Below, piece by piece: positions 16,245-35,711 of a stretch of 38,157 nucleotides of DNA. Positions within the stretch are counted from its first letter, which is position 1. The number at the start of each line of letters is the position of its first letter. This DNA is from Candidatus Gastranaerophilales bacterium (lineage in GTDB: Bacteria > Cyanobacteriota > Vampirovibrionia > Gastranaerophilales > Gastranaerophilaceae), in the NCBI GenBank assembly GCA_947624685.1, contig CANQLJ010000014.1:1-38157 (forward strand). The letters are read 5' to 3'. Below the pieces are notes generated by a model. It was given only the letters and a program-made list of their open reading frames with translations. It made no database searches and was not told the origin of the DNA. The position numbers were made by a program, and so were the translations under genes.

Positions 16245-16994
16245 TTAATTAATTATAAAATTAACAACATCATTTAAAGCGTCGGGGTTAGCTTTCAAAA
16301 GTTGATTGCCCGGGCCGCCGTTTTGATACCTCTTTACGGTTGCGGGGGTTTTGGTTTGAATATTAAAAGTGTGCTTATCGGTCTTGGATAGCACGATAAA
16401 AATATTTGTATCATAGAGTTTTACGCTTTTTATAGGCATTGTGATACCTTTAAATTCAAGCATGGGAGAAATTAAAACAAGTTTTTTAGGCGCAATTCTC
16501 ATTGCAATTGCAGCATTTGCTCCGACCCCCGCGCCAAAATCGGCTCCGACTATAATTACATCGTCGCAATTAATCTTTGGATAGTTTGCTTTAACATATT
16601 TTATCGAATCAATAACGTCTTTTGGAAGCTTTTGCCAAGTTTCTCTAGAGTAATAAAATCTTGATTTTAATTTTAAATTTTCATTATAGACGCTTCTGCC
16701 GTGTCCTCTTAAATCCATCGCAAGGACACTATAGCCTTTTTGTCTTAAATTTAGCGCTAAATCGCTCCAGGCTTGAGCGTTCATCGCATAAGAATGTAAA
16801 CATATCACAAGCGGCTTATCGGTCGGATTAGCGGGCATATATAAATCCCCGACCAAAATAAACTTATCCCTTGTTGTGAATTCGATTTTGTGTTTAAGGG
16901 GTTTTTTGGCTGATTTTTTTGGCGCGGCATAGCATAAATTGAGCGCAAACACCAAAAAAACTATCAAAAATATATATCCAAAAACTTTTCTCAT
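16245..16994 (-). CDS. Exported alpha/beta-hydrolase fold protein with altered catalytic residues
   Basis: The N-terminus is a signal peptide (MRKVFGYIFLIVFLVFALNL then CYAA), so the protein is exported, possibly as a lipoprotein-like or periplasmic form. The alpha/beta-hydrolase core is clear: LVICLHSYAMN (oxyanion region), MDLRGHGRS, the nucleophile elbow and VLSKTDKHTF near the acid position. The elbow reads VGADFGAG, so the usual Ser is Asp. The site where a catalytic His is expected reads NGGPGNQLL, with no His. Together these suggest that esterase activity is lost or changed. An extended -10 (TGTTAAAAT) ends 6 nt before the ATG at 16994, with no Shine-Dalgarno sequence. The substrate is unknown. 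Confidence 0.75.
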   Translation of the reverse strand: MRKVFGYIFLIVFLVFALNLCYAAPKKSAKKPLKHKIEFTTRDKFILVGDLYMPANPTDKPLVICLHSYAMNAQAWSDLALNLRQKGYSVLAMDLRGHGRSVYNENLKLKSRFYYSRETWQKLPKDVIDSIKYVKANYPKINCDDVIIVGADFGAGVGANAAIAMRIAPKKLVLISPMLEFKGITMPIKSVKLYDTNIFIVLSKTDKHTFNIQTKTPATVKRYQNGGPGNQLLKANPDALNDVVNFIIN

Positions 16995-17009: not shown

Positions 17010-17113
17010 AACATGACTGATTTTTTTGCTGTTTTTAAAAAATTAATACTTTTAGAGGAAATTTAAAAAATAAATTAAATATCTTTTTTAATTGTGTCGA
17101 ATACAATAGCACA

Positions 17114-17194
17114 TAAATAATTTTGTTAAGAGAGAAATCTCTTATCAAAACCTCCTCCCCAAGTCTAGTAGCCGCCTTATGACGGCTTTTTTTT
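17114..17194 (+). ncRNA. Yfr1-like small RNA candidate
   Basis: The stretch between etfA and the hydrolase has no credible gene but a compact RNA design. A 7-bp hairpin with a GAAA tetraloop (TAAGAGA-GAAA-TCTCTTA, 17127-17144) is followed by about 25 unpaired bases with CCTCCTCCCC at 17151-17160, and then a terminator hairpin with a T run (17170-17194). Cyanobacterial Yfr1 has the same plan: two stem-loops around an exposed CUCCUC-containing motif, about 55-70 nt long. Possible promoters are TACAAT (17102-17107) or TTGTGT-16-TAAATA (17092-17119), so the 5' end is 17114-17126. The exposed sequence is complementary to GGAGG Shine-Dalgarno sites. Homology to Yfr1 is inference from architecture. 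Confidence 0.55.
17170..17194 (+). terminator. Rho-independent terminator of the sRNA candidate
   Basis: AGCCG (17170-17174) pairs with CGGCT (17183-17187), helped by one inner C-G pair, and is followed by eight T on the plus strand. There is no plus-strand coding gene it could serve, which supports an RNA gene here. Confidence 0.75.
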
Positions 17195-17203
17195 ATTATA
17201 TAA

Positions 17204-18223
17204 TTAAATAAATGTCGCAAGCATATCGTCAATTAATGCTTTTGCGTCCTCAACGATTTTATAATCGGCATATTTAAAAATTTCCGCGTTTTCATCGGTA
17301 TTAATCGCAATTATGGTTTTACAGTTTTTCATCCCGCAGATATGTTGTATTGCCCCTGATATTCCAAACGCCACGTAAACGTCGGCGGTTGTAGTTGAAC
17401 CGGTTTGGCCGATTTGGGCCGATTGTGGCATTAAACCAAAATCGACAACTTTTCTTGAAGCGCCGACTTTAGCTCCGACAAGGTTTGCCAATTGTTCAAG
17501 CCTTAGAAAATATTTTTTGTCTTTTCCGTCATTAAGCCCAAAACCGCCCGACAAGACAATTTTTGCATTGGAAAAATCAACGGCATCTGAGGAATTATCT
17601 AAAATTCTTCTTAAAAATTTAATTCTTGTTTCTTCGTATGACGTAGGGTGAAATTCAAAAAGCTGGCCTGCTATATCTTTATCAAATTTTGCAATGAAAG
17701 TTTTTGGACGAATGGTCGCACATTGCGGGTTTGTCTTAGATAATATCGTCGCCATAAGCTCAGAGCCAAACGTGGGCCTTGTTGCCAAAAGTTTAATTTT
17801 TCCTTCTTCATACGCTATATCAAGCCCCGTGCAATCGGCGACAAGTCCCGTATTTAAGATTGTTGTAATTCTTGGAGCAACAATTCTTCCAATCTGTGTT
17901 GCGCCAAAAAGAATGATTGGCGAAGGATTTTGATTAAAATATTCACAAAAACATTTTGAAAAAACACATTGGCTAAAATTCTCTAATGATTTGTCTTTTA
18001 TGAGCACAAACCTGCCCGCTCCCGCTTGGAAAGCTTTTTTAATATATTGAGGACTGATTTCATCACAAAGAGCAACGGCTTCAATCACATATTTCATATC
18101 ATCGGATAAATTTTCATTTATGTCTTTAATTAAATCATAAGCTTTTGAAATAATCTCATAAGACACATTTTCAAGAGACTTTTGTTCAAAATTAACATCA
18201 CAATAGACAATTATTTTATTCAT
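17204..18223 (-). CDS. etfA: Electron transfer flavoprotein subunit alpha
   Basis: EtfA carries the FAD of the ETF heterodimer, which takes electrons from dehydrogenases such as acyl-CoA dehydrogenases and passes them on, or bifurcates them in anaerobes. The 339-residue protein has the C-terminal FAD-binding core: VLSGGFGLND, GASRKVVDFGLMP, QIGQTGSTTTADVYVAFGISGAIQH and AINTDENAEIFKYADY. The N-terminal domain, which contacts EtfB, is full length. etfB is directly upstream with a one-base gap, so translation is coupled. No acyl-CoA dehydrogenase lies in the window, so the electron donor is unknown, and whether it bifurcates cannot be read with confidence. Confidence 0.93.
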   Translation of the reverse strand: MNKIIVYCDVNFEQKSLENVSYEIISKAYDLIKDINENLSDDMKYVIEAVALCDEISPQYIKKAFQAGAGRFVLIKDKSLENFSQCVFSKCFCEYFNQNPSPIILFGATQIGRIVAPRITTILNTGLVADCTGLDIAYEEGKIKLLATRPTFGSELMATILSKTNPQCATIRPKTFIAKFDKDIAGQLFEFHPTSYEETRIKFLRRILDNSSDAVDFSNAKIVLSGGFGLNDGKDKKYFLRLEQLANLVGAKVGASRKVVDFGLMPQSAQIGQTGSTTTADVYVAFGISGAIQHICGMKNCKTIIAINTDENAEIFKYADYKIVEDAKALIDDMLATFI

Positions 18224-31315: not shown

Positions 31316-31331
31316 GAAGGCGGATTGGAAA

Positions 31332-31360
31332 TTTACCATTTAAAAATATTTTGGTATAAT
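31332..31360 (+). promoter_or_regulatory. Predicted leaderless promoter of cas9
   Basis: TTTACC (31332-31337), 17-bp spacer, extended -10 TGGTATAAT with TATAAT at 31355-31360, then exactly 6 nt to the ATG at 31367. Confidence 0.6.
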
Positions 31361-31366
31361 GAAATC

Positions 31367-34300
31367 ATGAAAAAGATATTCGCTTTTGATATGGGTAAAG
31401 CTAGCATTGGCTATTGCGTCAGAGAAGATGACGAAATAAAAAACTTGGGTTCAATAATAATTGAAAAAGAACATTCCGATGTTTCAGACAACAGAAGCAG
31501 AAGAAGGGTAAGAAGAACTCTTGATTCTCATAGAGCAAGAGAAAAATGGTTCAAAGATTTTTGGGAAAGTTTTGGACTTGTTGCGCTTGATAGTAATGAT
31601 GAAAAATTTAAGCGTGAATTTGCGTACAAGAATGATGACACAATATATAATTCAACTTTATTAAGAATAGCCCTTATCCAAGGAAGAAAGCTTGAAGATT
31701 GGCAAATATATAAAGCGCTTCATAGTGCAATTCAAAGAAGAGGTTATGATATAAATATCCCTTGGGCAAATGACACTAATGATGAAAAAGAAAATGAAGA
31801 AGCAGTTAGAAAATATTGTTCAATAGATGATGTTGATATAATTGGGGATGAAAAATATAAATATCCTTGTTATTACGACGCTGTTTATTTAGATTTATGG
31901 CAGGAAAATAAACCCAATGAGCTTAAAAAATTAATAGGCTTAAATCCTAAAAAAGTTAGAACGGCAGGCAGAGTTGCTCCTCGTGAACTTGTTGAAAAAG
32001 AATTAAGAAAATTGTGGCAGGAAGCTAAAAAACAACTAAGTGAACTTGAAGATGCGGATGAAAATGAATTTTTATATGGAGAATATAAAGAAGCTTATGC
32101 TTCTTTCAGTAATCCTAAATTTATTAAACACAGAGGAACAAGCCATGACCTGCAGGGTGTTTTAGGGCAAAAAATTCCAAGATTTGATAACAGAATAATT
32201 GCGAAATGCAGGCTTTTACCAAAAAGGAATGTTTGCGCCGCAGATACAATTGAAAATATTTCTTTTGTTTTATTAATGCAGCTAAAAAATTTCAGATTTG
32301 TTGACCCATATAATGACAATAAGCAAAGAGCGCTTAGTGCAAGTGAAATCAAGCAAGTTTATGAAAATAAACTTCCGATTTGGGTTGAAAATCTTAATAT
32401 TAAAAGAAAAAGCAAAACAAAAAACCCGAGCTTCACAATTACCAAAACAGATATTGAAAAAGTAACCGGCAAAAACAGTATCAACACAAAAATGGAAGCT
32501 TTTAAAGCCAACACCTCGGGGCGCAGTTCTTTTTGCAGACGTGCAGCGCAAATTATGATTGATATAATTTTATCAGGTAAAAACCCTGATGAAATTGATG
32601 TTTCAAAATATATTGATAAAGAAGGTTCTAAAGACGCCATTACCCAAGATGAAATAAAATCAATGCTATCTAAAATCGGCTCTTGGGAGAATCTTTATAT
32701 ATCAGATAACAGGGAAGAAATGGCTAAAAATTCAACCGATCCTGATATAAAAAGCGATATTTTAATAGGTAATATTACAAATCCTATTGTAAGAAACAGA
32801 CTTCAAATATTTAAAAATCTTTTGAATACTTTAATTGAAAAAGAAGGAAAGCCTGACGAAGTAATATTTGAGTTTGTTCGAGACGGGGCTGATAATTCCT
32901 TGTTTGGGAAAGTTAAAGCGGATAATTATATAAAACATCAAAAAAATCAAGAAAAAGAAAATGAGCAAATTAAAAAAGAACTCATTGAAGCGCAAAATTA
33001 CAGCGAAACAAACTTTATAAAGTGGAAGTTAGCTAAAATGCAAGACTTTAAATGCATTTACAGCGGTCAAAAAATTGGAATTTCAAATCTTGACAATTGT
33101 CAAATTGACCATATTTTCCCAAGAAGTCAAGGGGGAAACGACGCACTTTATAATAAAGTAGTCTGCTATAATAAAGAAAATCAGGATAAAAAAGACAGGA
33201 CTCCTTATGAATGGCTGTTTTGCGATAAACAAAGGTGGGCTGAATATATCGAGAGGGTTTCAAATTTAAAAGAAAAATTAGGAAAGAAAAAAACAGCCTT
33301 ACTTATTTTACCTGCTGAAAAATGTATTGAATTAATAGATAGCTATAATGGTTTAGTAGAAACCGCTCAAATTGCAAAAATCGCAAGCGCCATAACACAC
33401 TTTACTTGTAGTTGGGGTATGCAAACAAAAGATGACAAGCGCCATGTGTTTGTTGAAAACGGTTCAACTACGGCAAAAATTAGAAGGATGTATGATCTGA
33501 ATCGATTTTTGGGTGATGCCGAAAAGAAAAACAGAGACAATCCGAAACACCATGCACTCGATGCTATTTGTATAAGCTATGCAAGAGATTTTAAATTTAA
33601 TGAGCAAAAAAGAAAATTCTGTATAGAAAACTTTAACTCGGCTCATATTGAACAAAAAATTAATGAATTAATGCCATATCCTTATACGAATAAAAAGCCT
33701 TTAAAGTCAAATACTAATCCTCTTGAGACAATATACGGCAAAAGAATAATTGATGATAAAGCTTATATAACCTCAAGGGTTGATATTACAACAATTAAAA
33801 AAGACTTAAAATCAATAAAAAATATTATTGATGAAGTGATAAAAGAAGATTTGACTTCAAAAATTGATTTATCCGATGAAAAATGGATGGAAATGCTTAA
33901 AAATTATATTCACTCTAAAAAGCAAACTAAAGTTAAAAAGGTTTTAACTATTGTATCGGAGGGTGCATTAGAAACTGACTTAAACGGCCGAGAAAGAATT
34001 GGCGAATTTGTTGATTTTGGTACAAAAGGAACGCTGGGACAATTTAAACACTCAAAAGGTCATAAAGGACAAATTCTTTATTACGACAATAAAAATAACA
34101 TTAAAGTTATGCCGATATATTCCAATAAATCAACAAAAGAAGTAAAAGACAGGTTAATTGAAATGAACTGTAAGCTCTATCAAAAGGGTGAAATGTTTTA
34201 TTCAGGCTGTCTTGTTGAAATTCCAAACGATTTTAAAGCCGGCAGCGTTAGTTGTCCTAAAGGGGTTTATAAGTTAAGAAGTGTAATGTCAGATGGAAAG

Positions 34301-34387
34301 ATTAAATTAGAAAATAATGTCGGACAAGAAATTTTAACAAGTGCTAAAAACCTTGTTTTAGCAGAATTTAAAAAATTAAAAGATTAA
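31367..34387 (+). CDS. cas9: CRISPR-associated endonuclease Cas9, type II-C
   Basis: A compact 1,006-residue Cas9, the RNA-guided DNA nuclease of type II systems. RuvC-I is IFAFDMGKASIGY with D8; the Arg-rich bridge helix is SRRRVRRTLDSHRAREKW (44-61); RuvC-II has E502 in EVIFEFVRDG; the HNH domain is QIDHIFPRSQGG with H582, N596 and N605 at the spacings of SpCas9 H840/N854/N863; RuvC-III is HHALDA with H729 and D732. All catalytic residues are present. A C-terminal PAM-interacting region of about 150 residues ends the protein. The start at ATG 31367 gives the standard family N-terminus; the frame is open up to a TTG at 31325 preceded by AAGGCGG, a less likely start. Guides come from the array at 35884 and the tracrRNA at 36409. 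Confidence 0.96.
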   Translation: MKKIFAFDMGKASIGYCVREDDEIKNLGSIIIEKEHSDVSDNRSRRRVRRTLDSHRAREKWFKDFWESFGLVALDSNDEKFKREFAYKNDDTIYNSTLLRIALIQGRKLEDWQIYKALHSAIQRRGYDINIPWANDTNDEKENEEAVRKYCSIDDVDIIGDEKYKYPCYYDAVYLDLWQENKPNELKKLIGLNPKKVRTAGRVAPRELVEKELRKLWQEAKKQLSELEDADENEFLYGEYKEAYASFSNPKFIKHRGTSHDLQGVLGQKIPRFDNRIIAKCRLLPKRNVCAADTIENISFVLLMQLKNFRFVDPYNDNKQRALSASEIKQVYENKLPIWVENLNIKRKSKTKNPSFTITKTDIEKVTGKNSINTKMEAFKANTSGRSSFCRRAAQIMIDIILSGKNPDEIDVSKYIDKEGSKDAITQDEIKSMLSKIGSWENLYISDNREEMAKNSTDPDIKSDILIGNITNPIVRNRLQIFKNLLNTLIEKEGKPDEVIFEFVRDGADNSLFGKVKADNYIKHQKNQEKENEQIKKELIEAQNYSETNFIKWKLAKMQDFKCIYSGQKIGISNLDNCQIDHIFPRSQGGNDALYNKVVCYNKENQDKKDRTPYEWLFCDKQRWAEYIERVSNLKEKLGKKKTALLILPAEKCIELIDSYNGLVETAQIAKIASAITHFTCSWGMQTKDDKRHVFVENGSTTAKIRRMYDLNRFLGDAEKKNRDNPKHHALDAICISYARDFKFNEQKRKFCIENFNSAHIEQKINELMPYPYTNKKPLKSNTNPLETIYGKRIIDDKAYITSRVDITTIKKDLKSIKNIIDEVIKEDLTSKIDLSDEKWMEMLKNYIHSKKQTKVKKVLTIVSEGALETDLNGRERIGEFVDFGTKGTLGQFKHSKGHKGQILYYDNKNNIKVMPIYSNKSTKEVKDRLIEMNCKLYQKGEMFYSGCLVEIPNDFKAGSVSCPKGVYKLRSVMSDGKIKLENNVGQEILTSAKNLVLAEFKKLKD

Positions 34388-34390
34388 TTT

Positions 34391-34418
34391 TTGACAAAAA
34401 ATTAAATAGCATTATATG
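34391..34418 (+). promoter_or_regulatory. Possible internal leaderless promoter of cas1
   Basis: TTGACA (34391-34396), 16-bp spacer, TATATG (34413-34418), then 6 nt to the ATG at 34425. It lies right after the cas9 stop and could supply cas1-cas2 independently of cas9. Confidence 0.45.
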
Positions 34419-34424
34419 GATTAT

Positions 34425-35360
34425 ATGAGTTATCATATAATCCATATAACAAAACCAAAAAGCCATATATCAATTGACAAAGGGCTATTATTCTGCGAAG
34501 TTAAAGATAGTGATGAAATATATAAATTGCCCATTAGTGATATAAAAGCGGTTATTATCTGCAATCCTGCGGTTAGTTTTACAAATTGTGCAATAGCACA
34601 ATTATTAAATAATAATGTTGTAATTTTACATTGCGACAGAAAATTTCAGCCTATCGGTTGGAGTGCGCCATTAGATAGAATAGTTAATACAAAAGTTTTT
34701 AATAATCAAATTAAACAAAATGAAAAATTTGAAATTGAGCTTTGGAGAAAAATTGTAAAACAAAAAGCGCTTAATCAGGCTTGCACTCTTGATTTAATGG
34801 GCTGCGATACTCATAATCTGTATAATTTAATAGATAAACCTTTGATGAATGAAGCAAATATTGCAAAACAATATTGGAAGAATTATTTTTTCTATTTGAG
34901 CGAACCGACAAAAAGAGAATACAAATGTGCACAAAATTTTGAAAATGCTTGTCTTAATTATGGTTATGCAGTTGTTAAAACGCTGATTTACCGCTCAATT
35001 TTAATCCATGGGCTTATCCCGAGCCTTGGCATACAGCATAAAGCATCATATAAAACAACACCTCTTGTATATGATTTGGTCGAACCTTTTAGAGCGTTTG
35101 TTGATTTATATTTATACTATTTTTCAAAAAACTATGAATTAGATTTTGAAAATGAAGAAGTTGGAGAATGGATAAAATATATTCCGAATTGTTTAGTGAA
35201 TTATAGGCTGAAATATAAAAACATCAGCTATAAAATTATTGATATTATCGATATTTATATTGAAAAAATAGCCGAAGCATTTAGCAATTTTGATTGCAGT
35301 AATATTTTTCTGTCTGATTTAAAAGAACAATTTTTAGATAAAAATTTACAAGAAAAATAG
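34425..35360 (+). CDS. cas1: CRISPR-associated integrase Cas1
   Basis: Cas1 is the integrase that, with Cas2, inserts new spacers at the array. The start at 34425 (MSYHIIHITKPKSHISIDKG) is preferred over the ATG at 34416 because type II Cas1 proteins begin MSWR-like at this point and because of the promoter geometry. The N-terminal beta domain shows LPISDIKAVIICNPAVSFTN and VVILHCDRKFQPIG; the catalytic helical domain has the metal-ligand Glu in FENACLNYGYAV, the His in HGLIPSLGIQHKA and the acidic LVEPFRAFVD. It is about 311 residues, normal for type II. cas2 follows after 3 bp. Confidence 0.93.
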   Translation: MSYHIIHITKPKSHISIDKGLLFCEVKDSDEIYKLPISDIKAVIICNPAVSFTNCAIAQLLNNNVVILHCDRKFQPIGWSAPLDRIVNTKVFNNQIKQNEKFEIELWRKIVKQKALNQACTLDLMGCDTHNLYNLIDKPLMNEANIAKQYWKNYFFYLSEPTKREYKCAQNFENACLNYGYAVVKTLIYRSILIHGLIPSLGIQHKASYKTTPLVYDLVEPFRAFVDLYLYYFSKNYELDFENEEVGEWIKYIPNCLVNYRLKYKNISYKIIDIIDIYIEKIAEAFSNFDCSNIFLSDLKEQFLDKNLQEK

Positions 35361-35363
35361 AAA

Positions 35364-35711
35364 ATGAAAAGTAAATATTATATGGGATGGTTATTTGTTT
35401 GTTTTGATTTATCGGTTGCCGATAAAGAAGATATGAGACTTGCCAACAGGTTTAGAAAAGATTTATTAAATCTTGGCTGTTTTATGCTTCAAAATTCAAT
35501 TTATGTAAGGGCATGCGTAACTTATGATAAAACAGAAAAATATATTAAAGCAATAAAAATGCTCGCCCCTTCAACAGGACAGATTAATATTTTTTATATA
35601 ACGGATAAACAGTGGTCTAATTCAATTTGTATTGAAAAACCTAAATATAATCCTTCAAAATATAAAAAGAATATGGATGAAAGCACAGAAGAACAAATGA
35701 CTTTTTGGTAA
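35364..35711 (+). CDS. cas2: CRISPR-associated protein Cas2
   Basis: The small partner of Cas1 in spacer integration, 115 residues with a ferredoxin-like fold. The type II signature is clear: MGWLFVCFDLSVADKEDMR, then RFRKDLLNLGCFMLQNSIYVRAC, then the strand GQINIFYITDKQW. The conserved Asp after the first strand (FDL) is present. There is no csn2 or cas4 after it, which with the cas9 size defines subtype II-C. Its stop codon lies inside a 9-bp inverted repeat (35707-35729). Confidence 0.95.
   Translation: MKSKYYMGWLFVCFDLSVADKEDMRLANRFRKDLLNLGCFMLQNSIYVRACVTYDKTEKYIKAIKMLAPSTGQINIFYITDKQWSNSICIEKPKYNPSKYKKNMDESTEEQMTFW

Follow-up and report, generated by a model that had tools for sequence, protein, structure and literature searches.

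Here, we report that a stretch of 38,157 nucleotides from Candidatus Gastranaerophilales bacterium (contig CANQLJ010000014.1 of assembly GCA_947624685.1; hereafter, the window) carries on its plus strand, at positions 17114-17194, the gene of a predicted small RNA (sRNA) which, as judged from sequence comparison, belongs to a new, deeply conserved sRNA family of the non-photosynthetic Cyanobacteriota. Two hairpins enclose a core that contains the anti-Shine-Dalgarno motif CCUCC, and the unexpected feature of the family is its sigma28-type promoter. We consider it probable that the gene encodes a FliA-dependent sRNA that acts in trans by blocking Shine-Dalgarno sites, an analogue of Yfr1 of the photosynthetic relatives and of the flagellar sRNAs of Campylobacter. 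Rfam 15 holds no RNA family of such description, a literature search found no report of one, and Rfam models run on the locus at permissive thresholds gave chance-level matches only.

The minimum-energy fold of 17114-17194 places an open stretch between a 5' hairpin and a terminator hairpin, with an energy of -18.1 kcal/mol and a z of -3.6; an equally good fold was obtained in 2 of 200 shuffles. The open stretch comprises 19 unpaired nucleotides (17151-17169) and contains ACCUCCUCCCC, while the partition function leaves 17151-17165 unpaired with a probability of 0.88-1.0, and CCUCC is thereby open. Sequence and fold thus confirm the layout proposed in a preliminary description of this DNA, namely a hairpin, an exposed CCUCCUCCCC and a terminator with eight T, and bear out its view of a Yfr1-like plan with an exposed anti-Shine-Dalgarno sequence.

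Of 146 family genomes, most yielded the RNA in a nucleotide search with 17050-17203, the part from the core to the terminator being the best kept. Two covariance models of the RNA were used, R1 and R2, the second reaching more diverged copies. R1 matched with E < 1e-9 in all listed Gastranaerophilales genomes except G115, G261 and G278, and more weakly in two further families (f6 and f12), in which the full block of hairpin, AACCTCCTCCCCAAGTC and terminator is present and scores 45-50 bits with R2. Moreover, R2 added diverged copies in genomes G198 and G157, and a probable copy in G147. The Vampirovibrionales, including Vampirovibrio chlorellavorus (NCIMB 11383, locus L139), also carry the RNA, with weaker model matches. 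When a collection of 84,980 species was searched for CCCAACCTCCTCCCCAAGTC, exact matches came from the Gastranaerophilales, the Vampirovibrionales and two records labelled only cyanobacterium. Nothing convincing was found by R2 in families f5 and f7-f11 of the class, nor in 17 genomes of the phylum having neither this RNA nor Yfr1; R1 matches of 20-24 bits in f5, f7 and f9 were rejected as ordinary terminators or AT-rich matches from which the core is absent. No copy was found in viral contigs by an exact 24-mer search. Overall, the RNA is present in nearly all sampled Gastranaerophilales and also in Vampirovibrionales, which supports an independent, conserved RNA gene beyond the photosynthetic cyanobacteria. 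The hairpin-CCUCCUC-hairpin block, on whose conservation in relatives this proposal had been staked beforehand, is conserved in almost all genomes sampled from the family and the order. We also observed two full copies of the RNA in each of two genomes of family f4 (G311 and G325), and a second, diverged paralogue at locus L151 (G295:C2:425053-425160), with a perfect sigma28 promoter, ACCAAAACCTCCTCCCCTTTAAGTCTTGCC and no obvious 5' hairpin.

Comparison of 64 distinct loci indicates which parts of the RNA are under selection. The conserved core spans 16 nucleotides, 11 of them almost invariant; ACCTCCTCCCC is identical in 63 of the loci, the exception being a single T in one locus. The 5' hairpin lies at most 9 nucleotides from the core in 63 of the 64, with a mean fold z of -3.5. 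RNAalifold, applied to a MAFFT alignment, missed this hairpin because the position of its loop shifts, and the arms were therefore compared directly. For the inner four base pairs, we counted 32 distinct versions and a pairing of 98%, as against a mean of 54% (maximum 66% in 2000 deals) when the 3' arms are re-dealt among the sequences. The terminator stem is likewise swapped whole, from AGCCG/CGGCU in Gastranaerophilales to GCUACCG/CGGUAGC in Vampirovibrionales. Since the stems change with their pairing retained and the core stays unchanged, the hairpins are kept as a shape and the core as a sequence.

The neighbours of the gene vary between genera and orders and none is fixed, which argues against a leader or an attenuator; the alpha/beta hydrolase that lies to its left in the window keeps this place in genera g1, g36 and g39. 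We discarded fliI as a meaningful neighbour, as it lies beside the RNA in one genome and not in the sister genomes. In the window, the gene is flanked on the left by an alpha/beta hydrolase gene (minus strand, start at 16994) and on the right by etfA (minus strand, end at 17204), 10 nucleotides from the end of the RNA terminator. This short distance would suit a cis-acting element, that is, a leader or terminator belonging to a neighbouring gene, which we nevertheless regard as very improbable: both neighbours are on the opposite strand and differ among genera and orders, the RNA has its own promoter motif upstream, and conservation extends beyond the terminator to the open core.

Upstream of the hairpin, the relatives share TAAAG(TTT)-N11-12-GCCGATAA or a near variant of it, a form which is the known sigma28/FliA promoter consensus. 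The strict pattern TAAAG-N13-17-NNCGA precedes the RNA in 47 of the 64 loci, compared with 0.9% of dinucleotide shuffles. In 30 of 46 distinct loci, where shuffling predicts 1.9, the -35 is preceded at a distance of 3 or 13-14 base pairs by a further block, TTTRGANGAWAT. These two positions are one helical turn apart, the block accompanies only 2 of 36 other sigma28 sites, and it looks like an activator site. The promoter motif may alternatively be coincidental, the RNA being made from another sigma factor, for example constitutively like Yfr1. The weak -35 of the window, a TACAAT nearby at 17102-17107, the 17 loci in which the strict pattern is absent and the additional upstream block, which suggests another regulator, all point in this direction; we nonetheless hold it to be unlikely, given that two orders share the motif with its spacer and its distance to the hairpin, and that these match sites preceding flagellin genes.

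The sigma factor itself is present: the FliA_WhiG model TIGR02479 matched in all 60 family genomes searched, in 58 of them above the cut-off, and with 242.6 bits in the genome of the window (G000:C23:14806-15468). Strict sigma28-like sites outnumber those of a reversed-pattern control in genomes G033 (12 versus 0), G263 (10 versus 1) and G176 (11 versus 0); those of V. chlorellavorus lie in front of flagellin and prepilin genes, as read from the protein sequences. Flagellin genes were detected in 18 of 20 genomes checked. As far as these motifs and matches indicate, the flagellar sigma factor seems to turn on the RNA gene. The loci L147, L153, L159 and L145-L174 form a candidate sigma28 regulon of Gastranaerophilales, which includes many small, poorly annotated proteins (e.g., MGLSASQARFLQLTARKSNVEYEAQQ) besides flagellar ones.

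We hypothesize that the plus strand is transcribed from the sigma28 (FliA/WhiG) type promoter up to the intrinsic terminator, and that the two hairpins would guard the ends of the RNA and keep the 16-nucleotide core open. Through its CCUCC, the core could then pair with mRNAs at purine-rich Shine-Dalgarno regions of the GGAGG type, and so compete with the ribosome. FliA appears late in flagellum assembly, and because of this the RNA would most likely act as a late-stage brake, proposed here by analogy, which damps the translation of flagellar genes of earlier stages, or of costly genes of other kinds, after the late programme has started.

Shine-Dalgarno use was assessed on 337 genes predicted from 427 kb of the genome. 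A Shine-Dalgarno match of at least five bases precedes 112 of them (about 12 expected) and GGAGG precedes 22 (2.8 expected), while TANAAT boxes close to the start codon, of the kind seen in leaderless mRNAs, are modestly enriched (45 versus 26). As GGAGG stands before few genes, an RNA with an exposed CCUCC would act on a minority of them, and the earlier suggestion of a mixed Shine-Dalgarno use, which would limit the RNA to genes with GGAGG sites, is thereby supported. Its named targets fared less well: sbcC has aaaGGAGG and rsmD has aaaGGAG, but the M23 gene is without such a site and the named genes are not special.

Several observations weigh against the proposed mechanism. The transcript is a prediction from the gene, and the window, its own -35 being degenerate, fails the strict promoter pattern. 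Two genomes, G021 and G073, carry the RNA with no flagellin detected, and its role therefore cannot concern the filament alone. Against the 337 start regions, a reversed control RNA gave duplex energies as good as those of the RNA itself, and no target stands out. Moreover, in genomes G057, G107, G127, G021, G033 and G036, the 10-base complement of the core, GGGGAGGAGG, is confined to the gene of the RNA. FliA was found in G021, where it seems to be retained for another purpose.

In the window's own genome, there is one further GGGGAGGAGG site beyond the RNA gene. A search for long core complements, as targets or as a Yfr2-like antagonist, gave none beyond chance. A transglycosylase gene at the start of a flagellar rod operon had the second-best duplex energy (-18.2 kcal/mol) and was rejected, as the reversed control reaches -20.5. 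A search for Hfq with PF17209 gave no match, but two photosynthetic controls were equally without one, hence this result is uninformative.

Given that the target search gave no winner, either the pairing must be brief and directed at many targets, or the RNA has a partner other than mRNA. The core could be a mimic of the 3' end of 16S ribosomal RNA (ACCUCC), acting on ribosomes or on a tail-reading protein and lowering translation globally when FliA is active. The conserved core exceeds the need of a Shine-Dalgarno seed, yet in most genomes tested only the gene of the RNA carries the 10-base complement of the core, and no target pool stands out; many multi-target sRNA seeds are, however, equally conserved, such as the 11-nucleotide motif of Yfr1 (PMC2190773), and we give this explanation little credence. 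It is also improbable, in our view, that such a sigma28-induced mimic lowers the Shine-Dalgarno genes as a class and spares leaderless or non-Shine-Dalgarno mRNAs. If this class-wide effect were true, finishing the flagellum would reset which part of the genome is translated.

Taking the blocking of individual Shine-Dalgarno sites by a FliA-dependent sRNA as the preferred reading, the features of the locus are collected in Table 1. Elsewhere in the window, at 31325-35711, open reading frames whose proteins read like Cas9, Cas1 and Cas2 point to a CRISPR-Cas locus.

Table 1. Predicted features of the sRNA locus, in window coordinates.
Feature	Positions	Strand	Basis and remarks
Conserved upstream block TTTAGAGGAAAT (family consensus TTTRGANGAWAT), possible activator site	17051..17062	+	Sequence reading in the window
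-35 of sigma28-type promoter, TAAATATC, degenerate (family consensus TAAAGTTT)	17076..17083	+	Position and 12-bp spacer fit relatives
-10 of sigma28-type promoter, GTCGAATA (family consensus GCCGATAA)	17096..17103	+	Clear; identical box in same-genus loci L003-L005
Predicted small RNA	17111..17194	+	About 83 nt; start inferred 6-8 nt past the -10, end inside the T run
5' hairpin	17121..17150	+	12 base pairs, 4-nt loop; fold, kept with exchanged sequence in relatives
Near-invariant single-stranded core ACCUCCUCCCCAAGUC with anti-Shine-Dalgarno CCUCC	17150..17165	+	Conservation among loci
Terminator hairpin AGCCG...CGGCU and eight T (T run 17187-17194)	17170..17194	+	Fold and conservation

The preliminary description had further proposed that the RNA is homologous to Yfr1, whose origin would then precede the split from the non-photosynthetic lineage. 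Yfr1 consists of two stem-loops with 16-20 unpaired nucleotides between them, the 3' stem being the terminator; it is defined by the ultraconserved 11-mer ACUCCUCACAC and adjoins guaB and/or trxA in most genomes, with trxA as a neighbour in 27 of 31 (PMC2190773). Both RNAs have a 5' hairpin, an open stretch with a near-invariant core containing CUCCUC and a terminator hairpin, are near-universal in their own clade and presumably pair with multiple targets. They differ in that Yfr1 has its 11-mer, whereas the RNA described here has the core ACCUCCUCCCCAAGUC and a sigma28-type promoter, and is found in another clade. As to length, Yfr1 measures 54-69 nucleotides, and about 83 nucleotides are predicted here from a putative start. 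Yfr1 is also characterised by high transcript abundance and by proven pairing with mRNAs.

The search of this and related genomes with the Yfr1 covariance model of Rfam, which had been proposed as a check, did not favour homology. RF01116 (cut-off 38 bits) was scanned at E 0.01 against 292 genomes of the phylum, 136 of the window's own class and 156 others (G326-G481). It found Yfr1 in 135 of the 292, all photosynthetic relatives outside the class, and had no match in the 136 own-class genomes or in the window; its best match in the window's genome lies elsewhere, with 12.5 bits. The 11-mer is absent from both strands of the window. Neither guaB nor trxA adjoins the RNA in the window, and none was recognised by eye among the flanking proteins elsewhere. 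Conversely, the models of our RNA do not detect Yfr1, the best R2 matches in the Yfr1-bearing genome G403 lying away from the Yfr1 gene, and no genome was found to contain both RNAs.

The RNA may still be a true, very diverged Yfr1, both descending from a common ancestral RNA with CUCCUC between two hairpins that predates the parting of photosynthetic and non-photosynthetic lineages. The shared plan, size range and CUCCUC, an open stretch of 19 nucleotides that falls within the range of Yfr1 (PMC2190773), and the near-universal presence of each RNA in its clade, the two not having been found together, would fit such an ancestry. We consider it unlikely, since RF01116 is silent, the 11-mer is replaced, the guaB/trxA context is missing, the promoter is of the sigma28 type and neither RNA was found in the branches between. 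Moreover, CUCCUC follows from the anti-Shine-Dalgarno function alone, which makes convergence cheap and the simpler reading. The RNA is thus not recognisably of the same family as Yfr1 by any available test, and neither homology nor so early an origin is supported.

With this RNA, the non-photosynthetic Cyanobacteriota, which comprise gut dwellers and a predator of algae, would gain a conserved regulatory RNA of their own. Within one phylum, the Yfr1 plan is thereby encountered for a second time, apparently independently, which makes homology versus convergence testable. The cultured V. chlorellavorus moreover offers an anti-Shine-Dalgarno RNA with an apparent link to the flagellar sigma factor, similar to the situation in Campylobacter. 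In alphaproteobacteria, the CcsR or cuckoo RNAs carry the anti-Shine-Dalgarno motif CUCCUCCC in hairpin loops under alternative-sigma control; they differ from the RNA described here in that placement, in their other structure and in phylum. MotR and FliX of Escherichia coli are sigma28-dependent sRNAs and act on flagellar and ribosomal-protein genes (PMC10578931), but they derive from untranslated regions of mRNAs, are bound by Hfq and pair inside coding regions. CJnc230 (FlmE) of Campylobacter jejuni exposes a single-stranded anti-Shine-Dalgarno sequence between two stem-loops and represses flgM, which links it to flagellar regulation (PMC11187230), whereas it is RpoN-dependent, encoded downstream of flgE, has the seed CCUU and belongs to an unrelated bacterium. 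CjNC1 and CjNC4 (CJnc10/CJnc170) of thermophilic Campylobacter share with our RNA a sigma28 (FliA-dependent) promoter, a strongly conserved interaction region and a variable terminator stem (PMC4626219); in contrast, they are paralogues identical at 37 of 44 nucleotides, have another seed and are known in Campylobacter only. By analogy, CJnc230 and CjNC1/CjNC4 are the closest working models for the RNA described here.
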